Of a stretch of DNA of 13,200 nt, positions 989 through 10,851 are shown piece after piece. The DNA is from Candidatus Bathyarchaeota archaeon. Its GTDB lineage: Archaea; Thermoproteota; Bathyarchaeia; TCS64. The notes under the pieces were generated by a model. The model saw nothing but the letters and a program-made list of their open reading frames with translations. It did not search any database and was not told the DNA's origin. The DNA is taken from NCBI GenBank assembly GCA_030601645.1, contig JAUWBQ010000026.1:1-13200 (forward strand), in the 5' to 3' direction. Every line of letters starts with the position of its first letter. The first letter of the stretch is position 1. The translations under genes were made by a program, and so were the position numbers.

Positions 989-2215
989 ATGTCGGACAGG
1001 CAGCTTCTGGTCAGCAAGATCGAGAACGGGATAGTCATAGACCACATCCCGGCAGGAAAAGCGTTCCAAGTCCTGAGGCTGCTCAAGGTGGACCCGAAGG
1101 CGAGGGCCCTCATCGCCCAGAACGTGGAGAGCCGAAGCCATGGGGCAAAGGACCTCATCAAGATCGAGGGCTCCTACCTGACCAGCAAGGAGATCGACCT
1201 CATAGCCCTCGTCGCACCGTCGGCCACCCTCAACATAATCGAGGATTGGCAGGTGAAGGACAAGCGCCGGATACGGCTCCCCGAGAGGATCGAGGGCATC
1301 TTCAGTTGTCCCAACCCCCTCTGCCCCACCAACGCCGAGTACACGCCACCCCGGACCCGGTTCGACGTGGAGGCCGACGACGGAGTCGAGTCCATCAAGC
1401 TCCGGTGCACCTACTGTGATTCCCTCCTCTACTACGGTTCCATCCTCGACTACATCAACAGCGACGGCTTCAGTTTGGAGGGGGGCGGACTGGTCTCCAG
1501 GGAGAAGATCGAGCAGGTCTTCCTGGACATCCTCATGAAGAAGGGCGCTCTCCGGCTGCCGCCCAACCCGGATGAGCCATTCATATTGAAGAGCGGGAGG
1601 CCCTCTCCTTACTTCGTCAACCTGGGCGCCCTCACCGACGGAGAGTCCCTGGCGGCGGTGAAGTGGGCCTTCGCCAGCTACGTCGTCCTCCTCATGGAGC
1701 AGGGGTTGCTCAAGGATTTTGACTACGTCTTCGGCCCCAGTTACAAGGGCATCAGCCTCGCCACGTTGACCTGTGAGGGGCTCAAAGAACTCTACGGCAT
1801 GGACAAACGGTACATGTACGACCGGAAGGAGGAAAAAGACTACGGGGACCTCTCCGCGGACAAGGTCATCGTGGGCGCAGGCTACTTCGAACAGGGGCAG
1901 AGGATCCTGATCGTGGACGACACCATCACGACGGGCACCACGAAATTGGAGAGCATCGAGAAGCTGAAGCTGCTTGGGAAACATGAGGTCGTAGGATTTA
2001 TCATCGCCGTCGACAGGCAGGAGAAGATGGGGGACACGGATAACATAGAGGAGAAAGGAGCCGTCCAGTACATCGAGGAGGAGTTGGGACTGAAGGTGTT
2101 CTCCATCCAGAACATCCAGAAAATCTACGGCCTCATCAAGGACAGCCTGGACGAAGACCTGAGGCGCCTCTGGGTGGACTACTACAGCAAGTACGGCACG
2201 GAAAAGCTGGAATAA
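989..2215 (+). CDS. pyrI-pyrE: Fused aspartate carbamoyltransferase regulatory chain (PyrI) - orotate phosphoribosyltransferase (PyrE)
   Basis: The 408-residue protein joins two complete pyrimidine enzymes. Residues 1-155 are a PyrI chain: VSKIENGIVIDHIPAGKA (8-25) and KDLIKIE (54-60) form the nucleotide-effector domain, LPERIEG is at 97-103, and four zinc ligands C107, C112, C140, C143 follow the PyrI pattern CX4C...CX2C. After a short linker (about 155-170), residues 171-408 are an orotate phosphoribosyltransferase: orotate loop KSGRPSPYFVN (201-211), GPSYKGISLA (249-258), flexible catalytic loop DRKEEKDYGD (278-287) and PRPP-binding motif IVDDTITTGT (308-317), then DRQEKMG. PyrE makes OMP from orotate and PRPP; PyrI allosterically controls the ATCase catalytic chain PyrB, which is not in the window. 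I chose the ATG at 989, with GGGGAGAT 5-13 bases upstream, because PyrI proteins start here. An in-frame ATG at 899 would add 30 unmatched residues. The two halves are continuous, without stop or frameshift. Confidence 0.92.
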   Translation: MSDRQLLVSKIENGIVIDHIPAGKAFQVLRLLKVDPKARALIAQNVESRSHGAKDLIKIEGSYLTSKEIDLIALVAPSATLNIIEDWQVKDKRRIRLPERIEGIFSCPNPLCPTNAEYTPPRTRFDVEADDGVESIKLRCTYCDSLLYYGSILDYINSDGFSLEGGGLVSREKIEQVFLDILMKKGALRLPPNPDEPFILKSGRPSPYFVNLGALTDGESLAAVKWAFASYVVLLMEQGLLKDFDYVFGPSYKGISLATLTCEGLKELYGMDKRYMYDRKEEKDYGDLSADKVIVGAGYFEQGQRILIVDDTITTGTTKLESIEKLKLLGKHEVVGFIIAVDRQEKMGDTDNIEEKGAVQYIEEELGLKVFSIQNIQKIYGLIKDSLDEDLRRLWVDYYSKYGTEKLE

Positions 2216-2299: not shown

Positions 2300-3694
2300 A
2301 TGAAGCATTTTGACATCATGGTCATCGGCTCAGGCTCGGGGATGTCCATCGCAGACGCCGCCCTCAATCGGGGGATGAAAGTCGCCGTCGTCGAGGCAGG
2401 CCCCCTGGGCGGCACATGCCTGAACAGGGGCTGCATCCCGTCTAAAATGGTGATATACCCCGCAGACGTCATCAACACCATCCGGGAGGCCGGGAAGTTA
2501 GGCATCAAGGCCAGCATAAAGGAGATCGACTTCGCCCACATCATGGAGCGCAGCGCCAGGCTCGTGGAGGAGGACGTGAACCACATGGAGGCCGGGGTGA
2601 GGCCGGCCCCCGGCCTGACGATGTACCGCGACGTGGGGGAGTTCGTCTCCGACTACACCATGGAGGTCAGTGGAGAGACCATCGGGGCAGAGAACGTCTT
2701 CATAGTCTCAGGCGCCAGGCCCAGGATACCCCCCATCGAGGGGTTAGAGGAGGCGGGCTACCTAACAAGCAGGAACGTCTGGGAGATCAGGGAGCGCCCC
2801 GAGAGCATCCTAATCGTCGGGGGAGGCTTCGTGGCCGTCGAGTTCGCCCACTTCTTCTCCAGCGTCGGGAGCGAGGTCACCCTCCTCAGCAGGAGCCCCC
2901 GCCTCATCAAGGTCGCTGAGCCCGAGGTCTCGGAGCTCCTGGGCCGCGAGATGGGGAAGAGGATGGACATCCACTACGGCGTGGAGGCGGTCGAGGCCCG
3001 CAGGAAAGGCGGCCTGAAGGAGATCGCAACCGTCAGCAAGGCCACCGGTGAGAGAAGAAAATTCCGAGGGGAGGAGATATTGATCGCCGCAGGCCGCCGC
3101 TCCAACGCCGACCTGTTGAAGCCGGAGAATACAGGGGTCGAACTGGACGACAGGGGCTATGTAATCGTCAACGAGCACCTGGAGACGAGCAAGCCCAGGA
3201 TCTGGGCCTTCGGGGACGCCATCGGCAAGCACATGTTCAAGCACGTGGCCAACTACGAGGCCGGAGTCGCCTGGAACAACTTCGCCCACCAGCACAAGGA
3301 GGCCGTAGACTACTCCGCCGTCCCCTACGCCGTCTTCACCCACCCCCAGGTCGCCGGCGTCGGCATGACGGAGCAGCAGGCCCTCGACGCCGGGTACGAC
3401 GTCCTCATCGGCTCCTACGATCACAAGAACACTGCGAAGGGGGCGGCCATGGGAGTCGAAGAGGGCTTCGTGAAGGTCGTCATCGACGCTTCCACAAACA
3501 GGATCCTAGGGGGAAGCATCATCGGGCCCTACGCTGCGGTCATGATGCAGGAGATCATCAACGCGATGAACACCAAGGATGGCACGCCGGACTCCATCCA
3601 CCGCGCCATGTACATCCACCCCGCAGCCCCCGAGGTGGTCCAGAGGGCCCTCTTCAACCTTCGCAGAGCGGGGCACAGCCACGAGCACCACTAA
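2300..3694 (+). CDS. FAD-dependent pyridine nucleotide-disulfide oxidoreductase (dihydrolipoamide dehydrogenase / MerA-like)
   Basis: The 464-residue flavoprotein has the complete class I architecture. The FAD Rossmann motif is at 6-12 (IMVIGSGSG), the redox-active disulfide at C40/C45 (GGTCLNRGCIPSK), the NAD(P) motif at 171-180 (LIVGGGFVAV), the second FAD motif at 302-308 (WAFGDAI), and the dimerisation domain carries the catalytic dyad H440-E445 (HPAAPE). After the second nucleotide-binding strand the sequence is LLSRSPR (195-201), with Arg/Ser where NADH enzymes have an acidic residue; this resembles NADPH-using mercuric and glutathione reductases. MerA's C-terminal Cys pair and N-terminal metal-binding domain are absent, so mercuric reductase is unlikely. 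The protein ends in a His-rich tail (HSHEHH). The substrate cannot be named: lipoamide, a low-molecular-weight disulfide or another thiol carrier are possible. Its neighbours downstream are a peroxiredoxin and a nitroreductase, suggesting thiol redox or oxidative defence. Confidence 0.85.
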   Translation: MKHFDIMVIGSGSGMSIADAALNRGMKVAVVEAGPLGGTCLNRGCIPSKMVIYPADVINTIREAGKLGIKASIKEIDFAHIMERSARLVEEDVNHMEAGVRPAPGLTMYRDVGEFVSDYTMEVSGETIGAENVFIVSGARPRIPPIEGLEEAGYLTSRNVWEIRERPESILIVGGGFVAVEFAHFFSSVGSEVTLLSRSPRLIKVAEPEVSELLGREMGKRMDIHYGVEAVEARRKGGLKEIATVSKATGERRKFRGEEILIAAGRRSNADLLKPENTGVELDDRGYVIVNEHLETSKPRIWAFGDAIGKHMFKHVANYEAGVAWNNFAHQHKEAVDYSAVPYAVFTHPQVAGVGMTEQQALDAGYDVLIGSYDHKNTAKGAAMGVEEGFVKVVIDASTNRILGGSIIGPYAAVMMQEIINAMNTKDGTPDSIHRAMYIHPAAPEVVQRALFNLRRAGHSHEHH

Positions 3695-3732
3695 CCTCTC
3701 ACTCTCTCTCGCCCCCTTGGTTGAACGTCCGG

Positions 3733-3740
3733 TTTAAATA
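3733..3740 (+). promoter_or_regulatory. TATA box of the peroxiredoxin-nitroreductase unit
   Basis: TTTAAATA sits about 40 bases before the ATG at 3776, placing the transcription start near 3760. A strong Shine-Dalgarno GGAGGT at 3764-3769, seven bases before the ATG, confirms that start. Confidence 0.55.
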
Positions 3741-3775
3741 TCGTCGTCCGACTCCCTCCCCATGGAGGTTTCTGA

Positions 3776-4258
3776 ATGGTTGAACCGAGCGTTGGATCGG
3801 AAGCCCCGGCCTTCTGCCTCCCCAACCAGAACGGCGAGGAGATATGCCTCAGCGACATCAAAGGGAGATGGGGGGTCCTGTACTTCTACCCCAAGGACAA
3901 CACCAAAGGCTGCACCCTGGAGGCCCTCGACTTCACGCTGAACAAGGCCGAGTTCGAGGCCATGGGAGCCGTCGTCCTCAGCGTCAGCCCCGACTCGGTG
4001 GAGAGCCACCAGGGGTTCTGCCTGAAGCACGACCTCACCATCACCCTGCTGAGCGACCCCGATCACGGGGTCCTGGAGGAGTACGGCGTCTGGGATCTGA
4101 AGAAGATGTACGGCCGTGAGTTCCACGGCGTCGTCAGGAGCACATTCCTCATCGACCCGGAGGGGAAGATAGCCCACGAGTGGCGGAAGGTCAAGGTGGG
4201 TGGCCACGTCGACGCCGTGAAGGAGAAGCTCGCGGAGCTGAAGGGGAGCCGGGAGTAG
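3776..4258 (+). CDS. Peroxiredoxin, PrxQ/BCP subfamily
   Basis: This 160-residue thiol peroxidase reduces hydrogen peroxide and organic hydroperoxides in the cytoplasm. The peroxidatic cysteine is C46 in YPKDNTKGCTLEALDF (38-53), and the conserved Arg is in VVRSTFLID (119-127). The resolving Cys often found five residues after the peroxidatic one is Leu here (position 51). A cysteine at position 82 in SPDSVESHQGFCLKHDL (71-87) lies 36 residues after C46, the spacing of the alpha-3 type PrxQ enzymes such as that of Xylella (C47/C83). C14 and C24 are additional cysteines. GGAGGT seven bases upstream fixes the start. It is separated by only 7 bases from the nitroreductase gene and is presumably co-transcribed with it. 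The reductant may be a thioredoxin-like protein; the flanking disulfide oxidoreductase is a candidate upstream donor by context only. Confidence 0.9.
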   Translation: MVEPSVGSEAPAFCLPNQNGEEICLSDIKGRWGVLYFYPKDNTKGCTLEALDFTLNKAEFEAMGAVVLSVSPDSVESHQGFCLKHDLTITLLSDPDHGVLEEYGVWDLKKMYGREFHGVVRSTFLIDPEGKIAHEWRKVKVGGHVDAVKEKLAELKGSRE

Positions 4259-4265
4259 GGGGCCA

Positions 4266-4823
4266 ATGGAGGTCAGAGAGGCCATCGAGACGAGGAGGGC
4301 GTACAGATCCCTCGACCCCGCCACCATCACCGACGAGCTAATAAGGGACCTGGCGGCGAGCGCCCGCCTCGCCCCCTCCTGCTTCAACTACCAGCCTTGG
4401 AGGTTCGTGTTCGTAAGGGACCCCGAGGTCCTCGGGAAGATGCACGGCGCCCTAGCCAAGAACAACAGGTGGATCCAGAGGGCCTCGATGATCGTCGCCG
4501 TGTTCAGCAGGGAGGAGGACGACTGCAGCGTCCGGGGCCGGGTCTACCACCAGTTCGACACGGGGATGGCCACGGCCTTCCTCATCCTCAGGGCCACGGA
4601 GCTGGGCCTCGTCGCCCACCCGATAGCGGGATACAAGGAGAAGAAGGTTAAGAGGATACTTGGGATTCCTGAGGAGATGCAGGTCATCACCCTCGTGGCG
4701 GTGGGGAAGCACGCCGGGGTCCTCCACGACCTCCTCACGGATAGCCAGAAGGAACAGGAGAAGGAGAGGCCGCCGAGGCGTCCCTTCGAGGAGTTCGCCT
4801 ACGTCGACAGATACGGGGGATGA
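4266..4823 (+). CDS. Nitroreductase family FMN-dependent oxidoreductase
   Basis: The 185-residue protein has the FMN nitroreductase fold. It begins with the phosphate-binding pattern EAIETRRAYRSLD (5-17), then APSCFNYQPWRFVFV (36-50), the dimer-interface and flavin region RVYHQFDTGMATAFLILRA (92-110), GLVAHPIAGY (114-123) and the C-terminal GK element (VAVGKHA, 144-150). Members reduce nitro compounds, quinones or flavins with NAD(P)H, usually as homodimers; the natural substrate is often unknown and cannot be read here. It starts 7 bases after the peroxiredoxin stop, so the two form an operon. A hairpin with a T-run lies 22 bases downstream. A few relatives act as dehalogenases or in cofactor metabolism, so a specialised role is possible. 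Confidence 0.88.
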   Translation: MEVREAIETRRAYRSLDPATITDELIRDLAASARLAPSCFNYQPWRFVFVRDPEVLGKMHGALAKNNRWIQRASMIVAVFSREEDDCSVRGRVYHQFDTGMATAFLILRATELGLVAHPIAGYKEKKVKRILGIPEEMQVITLVAVGKHAGVLHDLLTDSQKEQEKERPPRRPFEEFAYVDRYGG

Positions 4824-7710: not shown

Positions 7711-8760
7711 ATGGACAGCCAACCTTCGGAGGAGCTCAGGAAGATCCAGCTGACCGGGGGCTCCACGTTCATCGTCTCCCTCCCCAAAGACTGGGTGAAG
7801 AAGGTAGGGCTGGGCAAGGGGAGCGTCGTGAGCATCACCCAGCTGGACGACCTCACCCTCTGCGTGCAGCCCAAGGACAGCAGGAAGGAGGAGGATGCCA
7901 AGAAGGCGATCATAACCGTCACCGACGATATGTCCCCGGAGAACGTCACGAGGAGGGTGATCTCCGCGTACCTCGTGGGGTACAACATCATCCAGCTGAG
8001 GAATCTCTCGAAGCGTATCGATCCCTCCCAGAGGTATGCGGTGAAGGATTTCACCCGGAAGAAGCTGGTGGGAACGGAGATCCTTTCGGATCTGCCTAGG
8101 GAGTTGACCCTACAGGTCCTGCTGAGCCATACGGAACTCTCGGTGAAGGACGCCCTGCGGAGGATGTGCATCATCGCCGCCTCCATGCACCGGGATGCGG
8201 TGAGCACCTTGGCCGCGGATGATTCGCAGTTGGCGCGGGAGATCGTGGGAATGGACGACGAGGTGGACCGGTTCGGCCTGTACATCATCAGGCTGCTGAA
8301 GGCTGCGGTGGTCAACACGGGGATCCTCAGGGAGATCGGCCTCGGGTCTCCGAGGGAGAGCCTGGGGTACAGGCTGATCACCAAGTCGGTGGAGCGGATG
8401 GCGGACCACGCGGTGAAGATCGCTGAGAACAGCCTGGCCCTGACCTTGATGACGTTGGACGATGAGGTCCTCTCGGAGCTCCGGGCGGTGAGCGATGCGG
8501 CGGTGAGGGTGTTCGAGGACGCCGTGGACTCGCTGTTCGAGGGGGACTACTCGACGGCGGAGGGGGTGATGACGGTGGCGCTGGAGGGGAGGAACAGGGA
8601 GGCGGAGATCGTCCAGATGATCATCAAGAATGCGCCCCCGAAGGACGTGCCTGAGCTGAGGCTTATCCTTGAGAGCATCCTGAGGACGGCGGAGTACGGG
8701 GCGGACATCGCGGAGGTGGTGCTGAACATGACCGTGGAGAGCGAGATCGGGCGGGGATAG
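7711..8760 (+). CDS. AbrB-PhoU domain regulatory protein
   Basis: The 349-residue protein begins with an AbrB/SpoVT-type swapped-hairpin DNA-binding domain, RKIQLTGGSTFIVSLPKDWVKKVGLGKGSVVSI (about 10-42). Two helical PhoU-like repeats follow: the first around MDDEVDRFGLYIIRLLKAA (181-199), and the second including KSVERMADHAVKIAEN (225-240) and ILRTAEYGADIAEVVLN (323-339). The acidic EXXXD-type motifs that bind metal clusters in PhoU are recognisable in both parts. This domain pair is common in archaea and is usually annotated as a phosphate-uptake regulator, but no pst transport genes are nearby, so phosphate regulation is only a family-based guess. The TATA box at 7671-7684 supports a leaderless or nearly leaderless start at the ATG 7711. 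It ends in TAG, just before a tRNA gene with its own promoter. Confidence 0.88.
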   Translation: MDSQPSEELRKIQLTGGSTFIVSLPKDWVKKVGLGKGSVVSITQLDDLTLCVQPKDSRKEEDAKKAIITVTDDMSPENVTRRVISAYLVGYNIIQLRNLSKRIDPSQRYAVKDFTRKKLVGTEILSDLPRELTLQVLLSHTELSVKDALRRMCIIAASMHRDAVSTLAADDSQLAREIVGMDDEVDRFGLYIIRLLKAAVVNTGILREIGLGSPRESLGYRLITKSVERMADHAVKIAENSLALTLMTLDDEVLSELRAVSDAAVRVFEDAVDSLFEGDYSTAEGVMTVALEGRNREAEIVQMIIKNAPPKDVPELRLILESILRTAEYGADIAEVVLNMTVESEIGRG

Positions 8761-8768
8761 CCCAGATC

Positions 8769-8778
8769 GTTTTTAAGC
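8769..8778 (+). promoter_or_regulatory. TATA box of the tRNA-Pro gene
   Basis: GTTTTTAAGC is centred about 34 bases before the mature 5' end at 8808, giving initiation near 8799 and a short 5' leader for RNase P, as expected for an archaeal tRNA gene. Confidence 0.6.
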
Positions 8779-8807
8779 CCTGATCCCGCCGTGTTTAGAT
8801 CGTCTGG

Positions 8808-8886
8808 GGGGTCGTGGTCCAGCTTGGTCTAAGATTCGCGGCTCGGGTCCGCGAGATCCCCGGTTCGAATCCGGGCGACCCCACCA
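8808..8886 (+). tRNA. tRNA-Pro (anticodon CGG)
   Basis: A full cloverleaf can be folded. The acceptor stem GGGGTCG/CGACCCC (8808-8814 with 8876-8882) is perfect. The anticodon stem CGCGG/CCGCG (8837-8841 with 8849-8853) encloses the loop CTCGGGT with anticodon CGG at 8844-8846, which reads CCG proline codons. The T arm is CCCGG TTCGAAT CCGGG (8859-8875). The D arm has the usual weak archaeal pairing, with one C-A mismatch. The discriminator is A8883 and CCA is encoded (8884-8886). There is no intron. TTTT follows directly and may terminate transcription. An A+T-rich restriction-modification block begins just downstream, consistent with tRNA genes being integration sites. Confidence 0.95.
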
Positions 8887-9103
8887 TTTTGAACGGCTCA
8901 TAATTGTGGTCGCTCATAGTGGTTTTTCTAGGTAAGGGCCGTGTTTTATTAAACGGGGATCGAATCGTGGAGTAAGTTCCAACTCCCGATGTGTTATTCC
9001 CCCAATGAGTTTGATGGATAGACAGTTAGTGTTTGGGATAAGCACCAATTTCTTCGGTGTTTATTTCCACACGTACTAGGTTTAAAGAAACTAAAGGAAA
9101 GAC

Positions 9104-9112
9104 TTCTAAAAG
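9104..9112 (+). promoter_or_regulatory. Possible TATA element of the restriction endonuclease gene
   Basis: TTCTAAAAG lies about 25 bases before the ATG at 9133, which has no Shine-Dalgarno, so a leaderless mRNA is plausible. An alternative TTTAAAG is at 9081-9087. The rest of 8887-9103 shows no gene. Confidence 0.35.
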
Positions 9113-9132
9113 CTCAGGCACTACTCAACTTT

Positions 9133-9942
9133 ATGAAAGAGAGATCCACGAGTTACGAACGCCCGCCGGATTCACGGCCCGAATTAATTGAACGCTTAAA
9201 AGAATTGCACGAGATAGGGTGGATCCAAACTAGGAAACAATTCAACGATGGTCTTGTCGGGAATACTTTAGAGGATTTCTTAGGCATCGAGGAAAACAAC
9301 ATTACTTTGCCCGATGCCGGAAGATATGAACTGAAAGCTCAAAGGTTGGGGACCGGTTCGTTGACAACCCTTTTACATTTTGATCCGTATCCCAGGAGGC
9401 CCAAGAGCGTGGTCGCCCATTATTTGGGACCGGTTTATGGGTGGCCGCACGAGACGATACCGGACGAGTGGAGTTTCAGAGTCACGATGTATGGAAAAGG
9501 GTATACTAACAGGGGATTCAAGATAGCAGTGGATCCAATACGAAACAGGCTGCTTGTGACGTTTGATCCGAACGAAGTGGCTCCGGATAAGCAAGACTGG
9601 TTAAAAGAAGTTTTGAGGAAAAGCGGGGGCAGGTTTGACCCGATTCCCCATTGGCCGTTGGATGAGTTGAAGAGGCGTCTAGAGAAAAAGCTCCCTAACA
9701 CGGTATACGTACACGCAGTTTCCCGTAAGACGGGATCTGGGTACGAGGAGTTTCGATACGACCAGGCAACAGTTTATGAGGGAATAGATTGGGATAAAAT
9801 ATTGGCTGGTCTGTCTTCCGGTCAAGTGTATGTGGATTTTGATGCGAGAACTGGGCACAACCACGGCACGAAGTTTAGGATAAGACAGGGAACCCTGAAT
9901 CAGTTCTACGCCAACATGGTGGAAATATTTGGCCCAACTTGA
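9133..9942 (+). CDS. Type II restriction endonuclease, MvaI/BcnI family
   Basis: This 269-residue protein carries the signature of monomeric MvaI/BcnI-type endonucleases: GNTLEDFLGIEENN (43-56) followed by LPDAGRYELKAQR (59-71). The catalytic triad D61-X4-E66-X-K68 has the same spacing as D50/E55/K57 of MvaI. The remainder (HYLGPVYGWP, TMYGKGYTNRGFKIAVD, TGHNHGTKFRIRQGTLNQFYANM) fits the DNA-binding part of such enzymes. Family members cut short CC-centred sites (MvaI CCWGG, BcnI CCSGG); the specificity of this one cannot be read. It is convergent with a methyltransferase gene whose stop is 9 bases from its own, forming a complete R-M system that would cut unmodified incoming DNA. Base composition is clearly more A+T rich than the flanking genes and the block follows a tRNA gene, so horizontal acquisition is likely. 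No truncation is seen. Confidence 0.85.
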   Translation: MKERSTSYERPPDSRPELIERLKELHEIGWIQTRKQFNDGLVGNTLEDFLGIEENNITLPDAGRYELKAQRLGTGSLTTLLHFDPYPRRPKSVVAHYLGPVYGWPHETIPDEWSFRVTMYGKGYTNRGFKIAVDPIRNRLLVTFDPNEVAPDKQDWLKEVLRKSGGRFDPIPHWPLDELKRRLEKKLPNTVYVHAVSRKTGSGYEEFRYDQATVYEGIDWDKILAGLSSGQVYVDFDARTGHNHGTKFRIRQGTLNQFYANMVEIFGPT

Positions 9943-9951
9943 GGGTGTGAA

Positions 9952-10851
9952 CTAAGGCGGGGGCCGCCAGAAATCCATGATGTACTCGAAGGTCACGCCC
10001 ATCGTGATGTAATTACTGGGCCAACCAAATATTCCGACCCGGTTAACTATGTTTGTTCTGTCCCAGATTATGATGTTTCTCAGCTCAAACCCTGCGTCTT
10101 CGACGGCCTCGATCACGTAGACGTGGAGAGGGATCCGGGCGTTATTCCACCAGAAATCTGGAACGTTAATGACGTTATGACCCTTTATTTTCATTAATGG
10201 CAGTATTTCCGAGTATATCTCTGTTAATGCCTTCTTGTATTCTATGATGTCATAAGTGCCTAAATCTCGTGGATCTTGGCTGTATTGTTCCACCTTCATG
10301 TATTGCTCGTTTCTTCTATCTTTGCCCCTTCTGCTCTTGTTTTTTCTTTTCCTGTTCAACAAATTTGCATACGGCGGCGATGTGATAGACAGGGCGACGG
10401 TTTCTTCATCCAGGTAATCAGATATGTTTCTCGCATCGTCCCAAACGGCCATTTGTTTGGTGTGAGACACTAGTTTTTGTTGGGACAGCCTGGATTCGCT
10501 GAGCTCGACATACTCTTTCTTTAGATCGAATCCCAAGGCGTTTCTGTCGAGGTCGCGAGCGGCGACCAACACGGTCCCTGATCCTACGAAGGGATCGATC
10601 ACCAGTTCACCTTTATGGGTGAAAAGTTCAACGCATTTCTTTGCCAGGGCTATGGGAAAAGTGGCGGGGTGTAGGTTTTTATCCCTGATGTCTCTGCCTT
10701 CATAATAAAACTGCCAAACGCCGATTTGCGCTTTTATCCATTCCTTCGCTGTCAAGCAGTTTAAATGATTGTCTGGACATTCGCATGTTTTCGAGAATCC
10801 GACTTTTAGTATTTCATTGGGTTTTTCTATTGTCGTTGAGACACCGGACAT
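9952..10851 (-). CDS. DNA methyltransferase, TSPPY-type (probable N4-cytosine), partner of the MvaI-like endonuclease
   Basis: The 299-residue protein contains SAM-binding motif X (HPATFPIALA, 61-70), motif I (VIDPFVGSGTVLVAA, 84-98), motif II (NALGFDLKKEYVEL, 104-117) and the catalytic motif IV TSPPYANLL (157-165). TSPPY is typical of N4-cytosine methyltransferases, though some adenine enzymes use related motifs. The order X-I-II-IV means the SAM region precedes the catalytic region, and the part after motif IV, including a very basic stretch (166-183), is probably the DNA-recognition region. An N-terminal cluster C23, C25, C32 is unusual. The ATG at 10851 has an A/T-rich promoter (about 10879-10890) and ends next to the convergent endonuclease stop. 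It would protect host sites from that enzyme. Composition is A+T rich like its partner and unlike the surrounding genes. Confidence 0.87.
   Translation of the reverse strand: MSGVSTTIEKPNEILKVGFSKTCECPDNHLNCLTAKEWIKAQIGVWQFYYEGRDIRDKNLHPATFPIALAKKCVELFTHKGELVIDPFVGSGTVLVAARDLDRNALGFDLKKEYVELSESRLSQQKLVSHTKQMAVWDDARNISDYLDEETVALSITSPPYANLLNRKRKNKSRRGKDRRNEQYMKVEQYSQDPRDLGTYDIIEYKKALTEIYSEILPLMKIKGHNVINVPDFWWNNARIPLHVYVIEAVEDAGFELRNIIIWDRTNIVNRVGIFGWPSNYITMGVTFEYIMDFWRPPP

Follow-up and report, generated by a model that had tools for sequence, protein, structure and literature searches.

The pyrimidine pathway provides several examples of fused proteins, including PyrB-PyrI, UMP synthase (PyrE-PyrF), and CAD, and its ATCase is the textbook allosteric enzyme. 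Two of these fusions, PyrB-PyrI and PyrE-PyrF, are represented by NCBIfam models (NF009916 and NF004034, respectively). The PyrI-PyrE protein described here resembles all three in that enzymes of the same pathway are placed on one chain. However, none of them pairs PyrI with PyrE, and PyrI-PyrE joins non-consecutive steps via the regulatory chain. The PyrI proteins of E. coli (1d09_B), Sulfolobus (1pg5_B), and M. jannaschii (2yww) end after the zinc domain, whereas the fusion adds a whole orotate phosphoribosyltransferase (OPRT). Conversely, long-type OPRTs such as PyrE of E. coli and Francisella and yeast Ura5 are free proteins, whereas the fused enzyme has an N-terminal PyrI.

In Methanomethylicota, pyrI and a long-type pyrE belong to one operon but are not fused. 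The order pyrB-pyrI-pyrC-pyrDK-pyrE-pyrF was observed in 11 of 12 Methanomethylicota loci, with gene families checked in locus L027; in the latter, PyrD-PyrK is encoded in one frame (8193-9869, 559 aa). No description of a PyrI-PyrE protein was found in the papers searched, few of them from subscription journals, in agreement with the initial annotation, which knew of no characterized protein of this kind; the available passages of PMC10477458 and PMC13260591 are silent on such a fusion. Each half is standard, and their conserved joining is apparently new within the papers searched.

Architecture and conserved sites of the fusion

The pyrI-pyrE gene (989..2215, plus strand) of the window, the whole analyzed stretch of 13,200 nucleotides, is a single frame of 408 codons plus stop that encodes a complete PyrI followed by a complete PyrE, as initially annotated. 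Residues 1-160 (989..1468, plus strand) make up the PyrI half. Both domains of an ATCase regulatory chain are present, the allosteric domain (residues 7-95) and the zinc domain (residues 100-147), the latter with the four zinc cysteines C107, C112, C140, and C143. Residues V16, D18, H19, K54, K58, N82, and K92 are aligned with E. coli V17, D19, H20, K56, K60, N84, and K94, which we take to be the effector-site residues of ATCase. A linker at approximately residues 161-170 (1469..1498, plus strand), ending in GGGLVS, has the lowest model confidence and lies between the two folded halves. The PyrE half (residues 171-408; 1499..2212, plus strand) has the profile, fold, and active-site residues of an OPRT; K201, K253, R279, K280, K283, D310, and D311 presumably play the roles of their counterparts in the E. 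coli and Salmonella enzymes. This half belongs to the longer PyrE type known from bacteria and yeast, in contrast to the short PyrE of other Bathyarchaeia. Thus, the zinc cysteines, effector-site motifs, and orotate and PRPP motifs previously noted in the two halves are all intact.

The protein differs from both fusions with NCBIfam models. The PyrB-PyrI model scores 51.4 bits (cut-off 800) with the match confined to the PyrI part, and the UMP synthase model scores 28.8 bits (cut-off 656) with the match confined to the OPRT part. The domain search of the 408-aa protein revealed neither a PyrB nor an OMP decarboxylase domain on the polypeptide.

Conservation of these sites was surveyed in 190 fused proteins from two protein searches. 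All seven effector-site residues are invariant in 174 of them. Among the other 16, P0184 and P0191 are gapped at this site, K58 is replaced by a non-basic residue in eight (P0180-P0183, P0185, P0187-P0189), and P0174 has Arg at this position. At the level of genomes, the effector-site residues are unaltered in 27 of 28 checked (G039 was left out of the check), the exception being G027. All four zinc cysteines are present in 189 of the 190 proteins, the remaining one being a cut sequence, and the seven OPRT residues are retained in at least 189. Still, the zinc domain of the Bathyarchaeal fusions is a few residues longer than that of unfused PyrI, and the residue after the third zinc cysteine, His in 18 of 21 unfused Bathyarchaeal PyrI, is mostly Thr or others in the fused proteins. 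A further peculiarity concerns residue 285 (1841-1843), which is Tyr in all 190 fused proteins, whereas the E. coli and Salmonella OPRTs have the loop His105 here; His occupies this position in 31 of 37 other long PyrE and in 9 of 11 Methanomethylicota PyrE.

It is extremely improbable that the fusion is an artefact or that the gene yields two products by internal initiation of a free PyrE. The best 120 of the 571 matches in the first protein search are all full-length single-frame fusions of 401-433 aa, with identity of at least 74% (the window's own protein counted in), and a single-frame fusion is also present in a 2.3-Mb chromosome record (G001). These relatives refute an assembly join or frameshift as the cause of the fusion, one of the outcomes that the initial annotation had named as fatal to it, even though the halves lie in two overlapping frames in G029 (L023/L111). 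As for internal initiation, 2 of 15 genes have a start codon accompanied by a Shine-Dalgarno-like stretch within the linker (residues 168-171), and 5 of 15 have one at some point between residues 150 and 189. However, the internal start candidates of the window gene (residues 163 and 183) lack such a stretch, and their position is not conserved.

Distribution and evolutionary history

A scan of species genomes with two peptide patterns from the PyrE half yielded 75 loci, 22 of which (L001-L018, L020-L023) cover the query completely or almost completely. In L023 the halves are in two frames, L019 and L024 are broken by contig ends, L025 contains a close unfused PyrE, and L026-L075 contain more distant PyrE. 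In the Bathyarchaeota class (the class of G001), 196 of 201 sampled genomes have some match and 23 have the complete fusion. Fused-type pieces occur in six more genomes of this class (G108, G029, G056, G067, G052, and G096), where contig ends, a run of N, or a frameshift interrupt them; in G063 and G123, the fused-type PyrE lacks an intact PyrI half. The other genomes of the class have mostly PyrI alone, among the matches listed.

A sample of 398 genomes from the phylum contains eight matches at E 1e-50 or better, three from the Bathyarchaeal class and five from another class. Among 44 genomes of this second class, the fusion is present in five and a PyrI-only match in 25, and 14 have no match to the fusion at E 1e-20. 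The closest named matches of the second-class fusion, among the matches listed, are Candidatus Caldarchaeum and Aigarchaeota; P0143 is identical to the G427 fusion over the compared parts. Further fused matches carry the names Geothermarchaeales, Nitrososphaerales, and Nitrososphaeria. In the second protein search, the PyrI domain is present in 82 of 120 and absent in 38 of 120 among the matches listed, and two of the latter (P0190 and P0191) look like cut fusions. Another fusion of the second type, that of G007, is the sole one in a sample of 101 genomes of its class. PyrI-PyrE is a conserved architecture rather than a one-off; at least two archaeal classes have it, and some members have secondarily lost the PyrI half. 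Where the protein is named in public sources, the name covers one half only, and hence pathway reconstructions of these archaea can miss pyrI or pyrE.

The PyrI tree of 81 sequences unites all 48 fused halves in one clade (100/99). Twenty of the 21 unfused Bathyarchaeal PyrI group apart from it (98/94), the last one, from G042, sitting weakly beside the fused clade, and 12 Methanomethylicota PyrI form a separate group outside it (100/100). In the PyrE tree of 97 sequences, a quick tree with long branches and no bootstrap, a single clade (SH-aLRT 99) unites the fused halves with their close unfused relatives; the order of fused and unfused forms inside it is not settled. This clade is separate from the short Bathyarchaeal PyrE and from the Methanomethylicota and bacterial long PyrE, which group together, consistent with the earlier suggestion that the long-type PyrE half has its own origin. 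Since pyrI and pyrE share an operon in Methanomethylicota, it was attractive to derive the fusion from an operon of this kind through deletion of the intervening genes; however, this origin is not supported, as neither fusion half groups there. An origin within Bathyarchaeia alone was dropped once a second class with the fusion appeared.

Unfused forms fall within the fused-type PyrE clade. Four of them (P0195, P0198, P0206, and P0222) start with the linker of the fusion, and G063 retains the first PyrI residues, then a stop, then the linker ahead of PyrE. Because the linkers are kept and the fused PyrI halves form a single clade, the unfused members probably result from loss of PyrI rather than descend from an unfused ancestor.

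In the EF-2 tree of 26 genomes, the window's kind is represented by 11 fused genomes, which group as a single clade (100/100); therefore, the fusion gene was inherited within this kind. At least three changes of the fused label are required across the tree as a whole, and inheritance must hence be supplemented by transfer or repeated loss. In the window's lineage, separate pyrI and short pyrE were apparently displaced by the fused gene; wherever a separate pyrB-pyrI pair was retained, the PyrI half of the fusion would have been free to decay. The genome at the base of the 11-genome clade, G003, carries additional copies of pyrI and of a short pyrE on other contigs and a single EF-2 over the cut-off; it could represent either an intermediate or a mixed bin.

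Probable function of the fused PyrI half

The most probable explanation, to which we assign a probability of roughly two thirds, is that the fused PyrI is a working ATCase regulatory chain that carries OPRT onto ATCase. The pyrI-pyrE gene would then produce a bifunctional protein. Its N-terminal half would act as the regulatory chain and bind nucleotides in the allosteric domain, and its zinc domain, known for holding the catalytic chain, would dock on PyrB encoded elsewhere. Its C-terminal half would be the orotate phosphoribosyltransferase of the cell, with a predicted catalytic activity. ATCase built with this chain would bear OPRT domains on its regulatory chains, by analogy with the E. 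coli enzyme in the composition c6(r-OPRT)6. If so, a regulatory chain bearing a later enzyme of the pathway would represent a new coupling of two distant steps, and a mixed ATCase-OPRT particle could be made from two genes.

Support for OPRT being carried on ATCase comes from gene content in the 29 genomes that carry the complete fusion (23 first-class genomes, G007, and five second-class genomes); their completeness is not stated, which makes absences in drafts weak. In 27 of the 29, no PyrI besides the fused one was found; G003 and G027 have a separate one too. No full-length OPRT other than the fused PyrE was found in 27, whereas G003 and G048 each have a second OPRT match over the cut-off. 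No other extra OPRT match in these genomes exceeds 38 bits, apart from a 49-bit pyrE fragment with a stop that adjoins the fusion in G027 (contig 38, 1338-1682, minus strand, in L121), perhaps a remnant of a displaced short pyrE. PyrB was found over the cut-off in 25 of the 29 and was not found over it in the draft genomes G078, G084, G102, and G458; these four cases count against OPRT on ATCase. The retained effector-site, zinc, and OPRT residues also support this explanation; the differences of the zinc domain from unfused PyrI weaken it.

Alternatively, the PyrI half no longer serves ATCase and has become a nucleotide-sensing domain for the attached OPRT only, which we find quite unlikely. 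Such a change would fit an effector site that is retained though the zinc domain somewhat diverged. It would also fit the location of pyrB, which never adjoins the fusion and shares a contig with it only in G001, G316, and G427, at least 139 kb away, whereas in unfused Bathyarchaeia it lies beside pyrI in 10 of the 20 loci analyzed, in a divergent arrangement in nine; this contrast counts against OPRT on ATCase. However, loss of the ATCase role would leave 27 of the 29 genomes without an ATCase regulatory chain, and the zinc cysteines are retained.

Genomes that retain a separate pyrI provide a natural experiment on whether the PyrI half serves ATCase or OPRT. Four genomes have both a separate pyrI and a fused-type PyrE: (i) in G003, the fused effector site is intact; (ii) in G027, it is lost; (iii) in G063, the fused PyrI half is deleted; and (iv) in G123, the fused-type PyrE has no PyrI half and may never have had one. 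The separate pyrI is divergent from pyrB in G027, G063, and G123. Without a separate pyrI, the fused PyrI is intact in 26 of 27 checked genomes. The exception is G008 (L025/L120, 134-4528), with an unfused fused-type PyrE inside a pyrF-pyrE-pyrD-pyrK-pyrC cluster; no PyrI was found in this genome. The fused PyrI is thus not intact in 3 of 4 versus 1 of 27 genomes (Fisher's exact p 0.0035, kinship ignored). Among the 12 analyzed genomes of the order to which G027 and G063 belong, 11 have a separate PyrI (both included) and in one no separate PyrI was found; the fused PyrI is present in G027 only.

This pattern would be expected of a fused PyrI that serves PyrB as an ordinary PyrI does; decay of the site or loss of the half would not be expected if it served OPRT alone. 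The effect comes from few independent cases: G027 and G063 belong to one order, G123 might have lacked a PyrI half from the outset, and the fused PyrI of G003 is intact. The initial proposal that OPRT is attached to the ATCase holoenzyme thus has indirect support from the gene counts and from the fate of the PyrI half, assembly with PyrB being a prediction.

Another scenario is a passive tether, in which the halves work as their separate counterparts do and joining them merely sets their ratio or location, leaving OPRT kinetics unaffected by ATCase or nucleotides. It departs from OPRT carried on ATCase only by denying functional coupling, and we consider it unlikely. The linker looks flexible in the model, between two complete folds, and the PyrE kept without PyrI in G063 and, with the linker alone, in P0195, P0198, P0206, and P0222 points to an OPRT independent of PyrI. 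Yet two classes conserve the architecture, with a linker similar in place and end, a hint of something beyond convenience, though no proof. Beyond attachment of OPRT to ATCase, a single nucleotide-sensing device in one particle might control both the pathway entry and the PRPP-consuming step, with binding of CTP or ATP shifting the two activities in concert; we regard this as possible but doubtful.

Gene neighborhoods

Other pyrimidine genes accompany the fusion in two genomes of the second class. In G316, an OMP decarboxylase gene over the model cut-off overlaps the end of the fusion. In G427, a gene for dihydroorotate dehydrogenase is located upstream of the fusion and one for OMP decarboxylase downstream, in the opposite strand, both under the model cut-offs. 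A different fusion, a Woesearchaeal PyrE-PyrF of 504 aa, is encoded in L032 (4757-6268). In the window, the fusion is followed by genes for a disulfide oxidoreductase, a peroxiredoxin, and a nitroreductase-family protein (2300-4820, plus strand); relatives of the disulfide oxidoreductase are found downstream of the fusion in 14 of 24 loci (L001-L024), mostly within about 250 bases. Farther along, an MvaI/BcnI-type restriction endonuclease gene (9133-9942, plus strand) is convergent with a gene for an N6/N4 DNA methylase (9952-10851, minus strand), and the two probably constitute one restriction-modification system.
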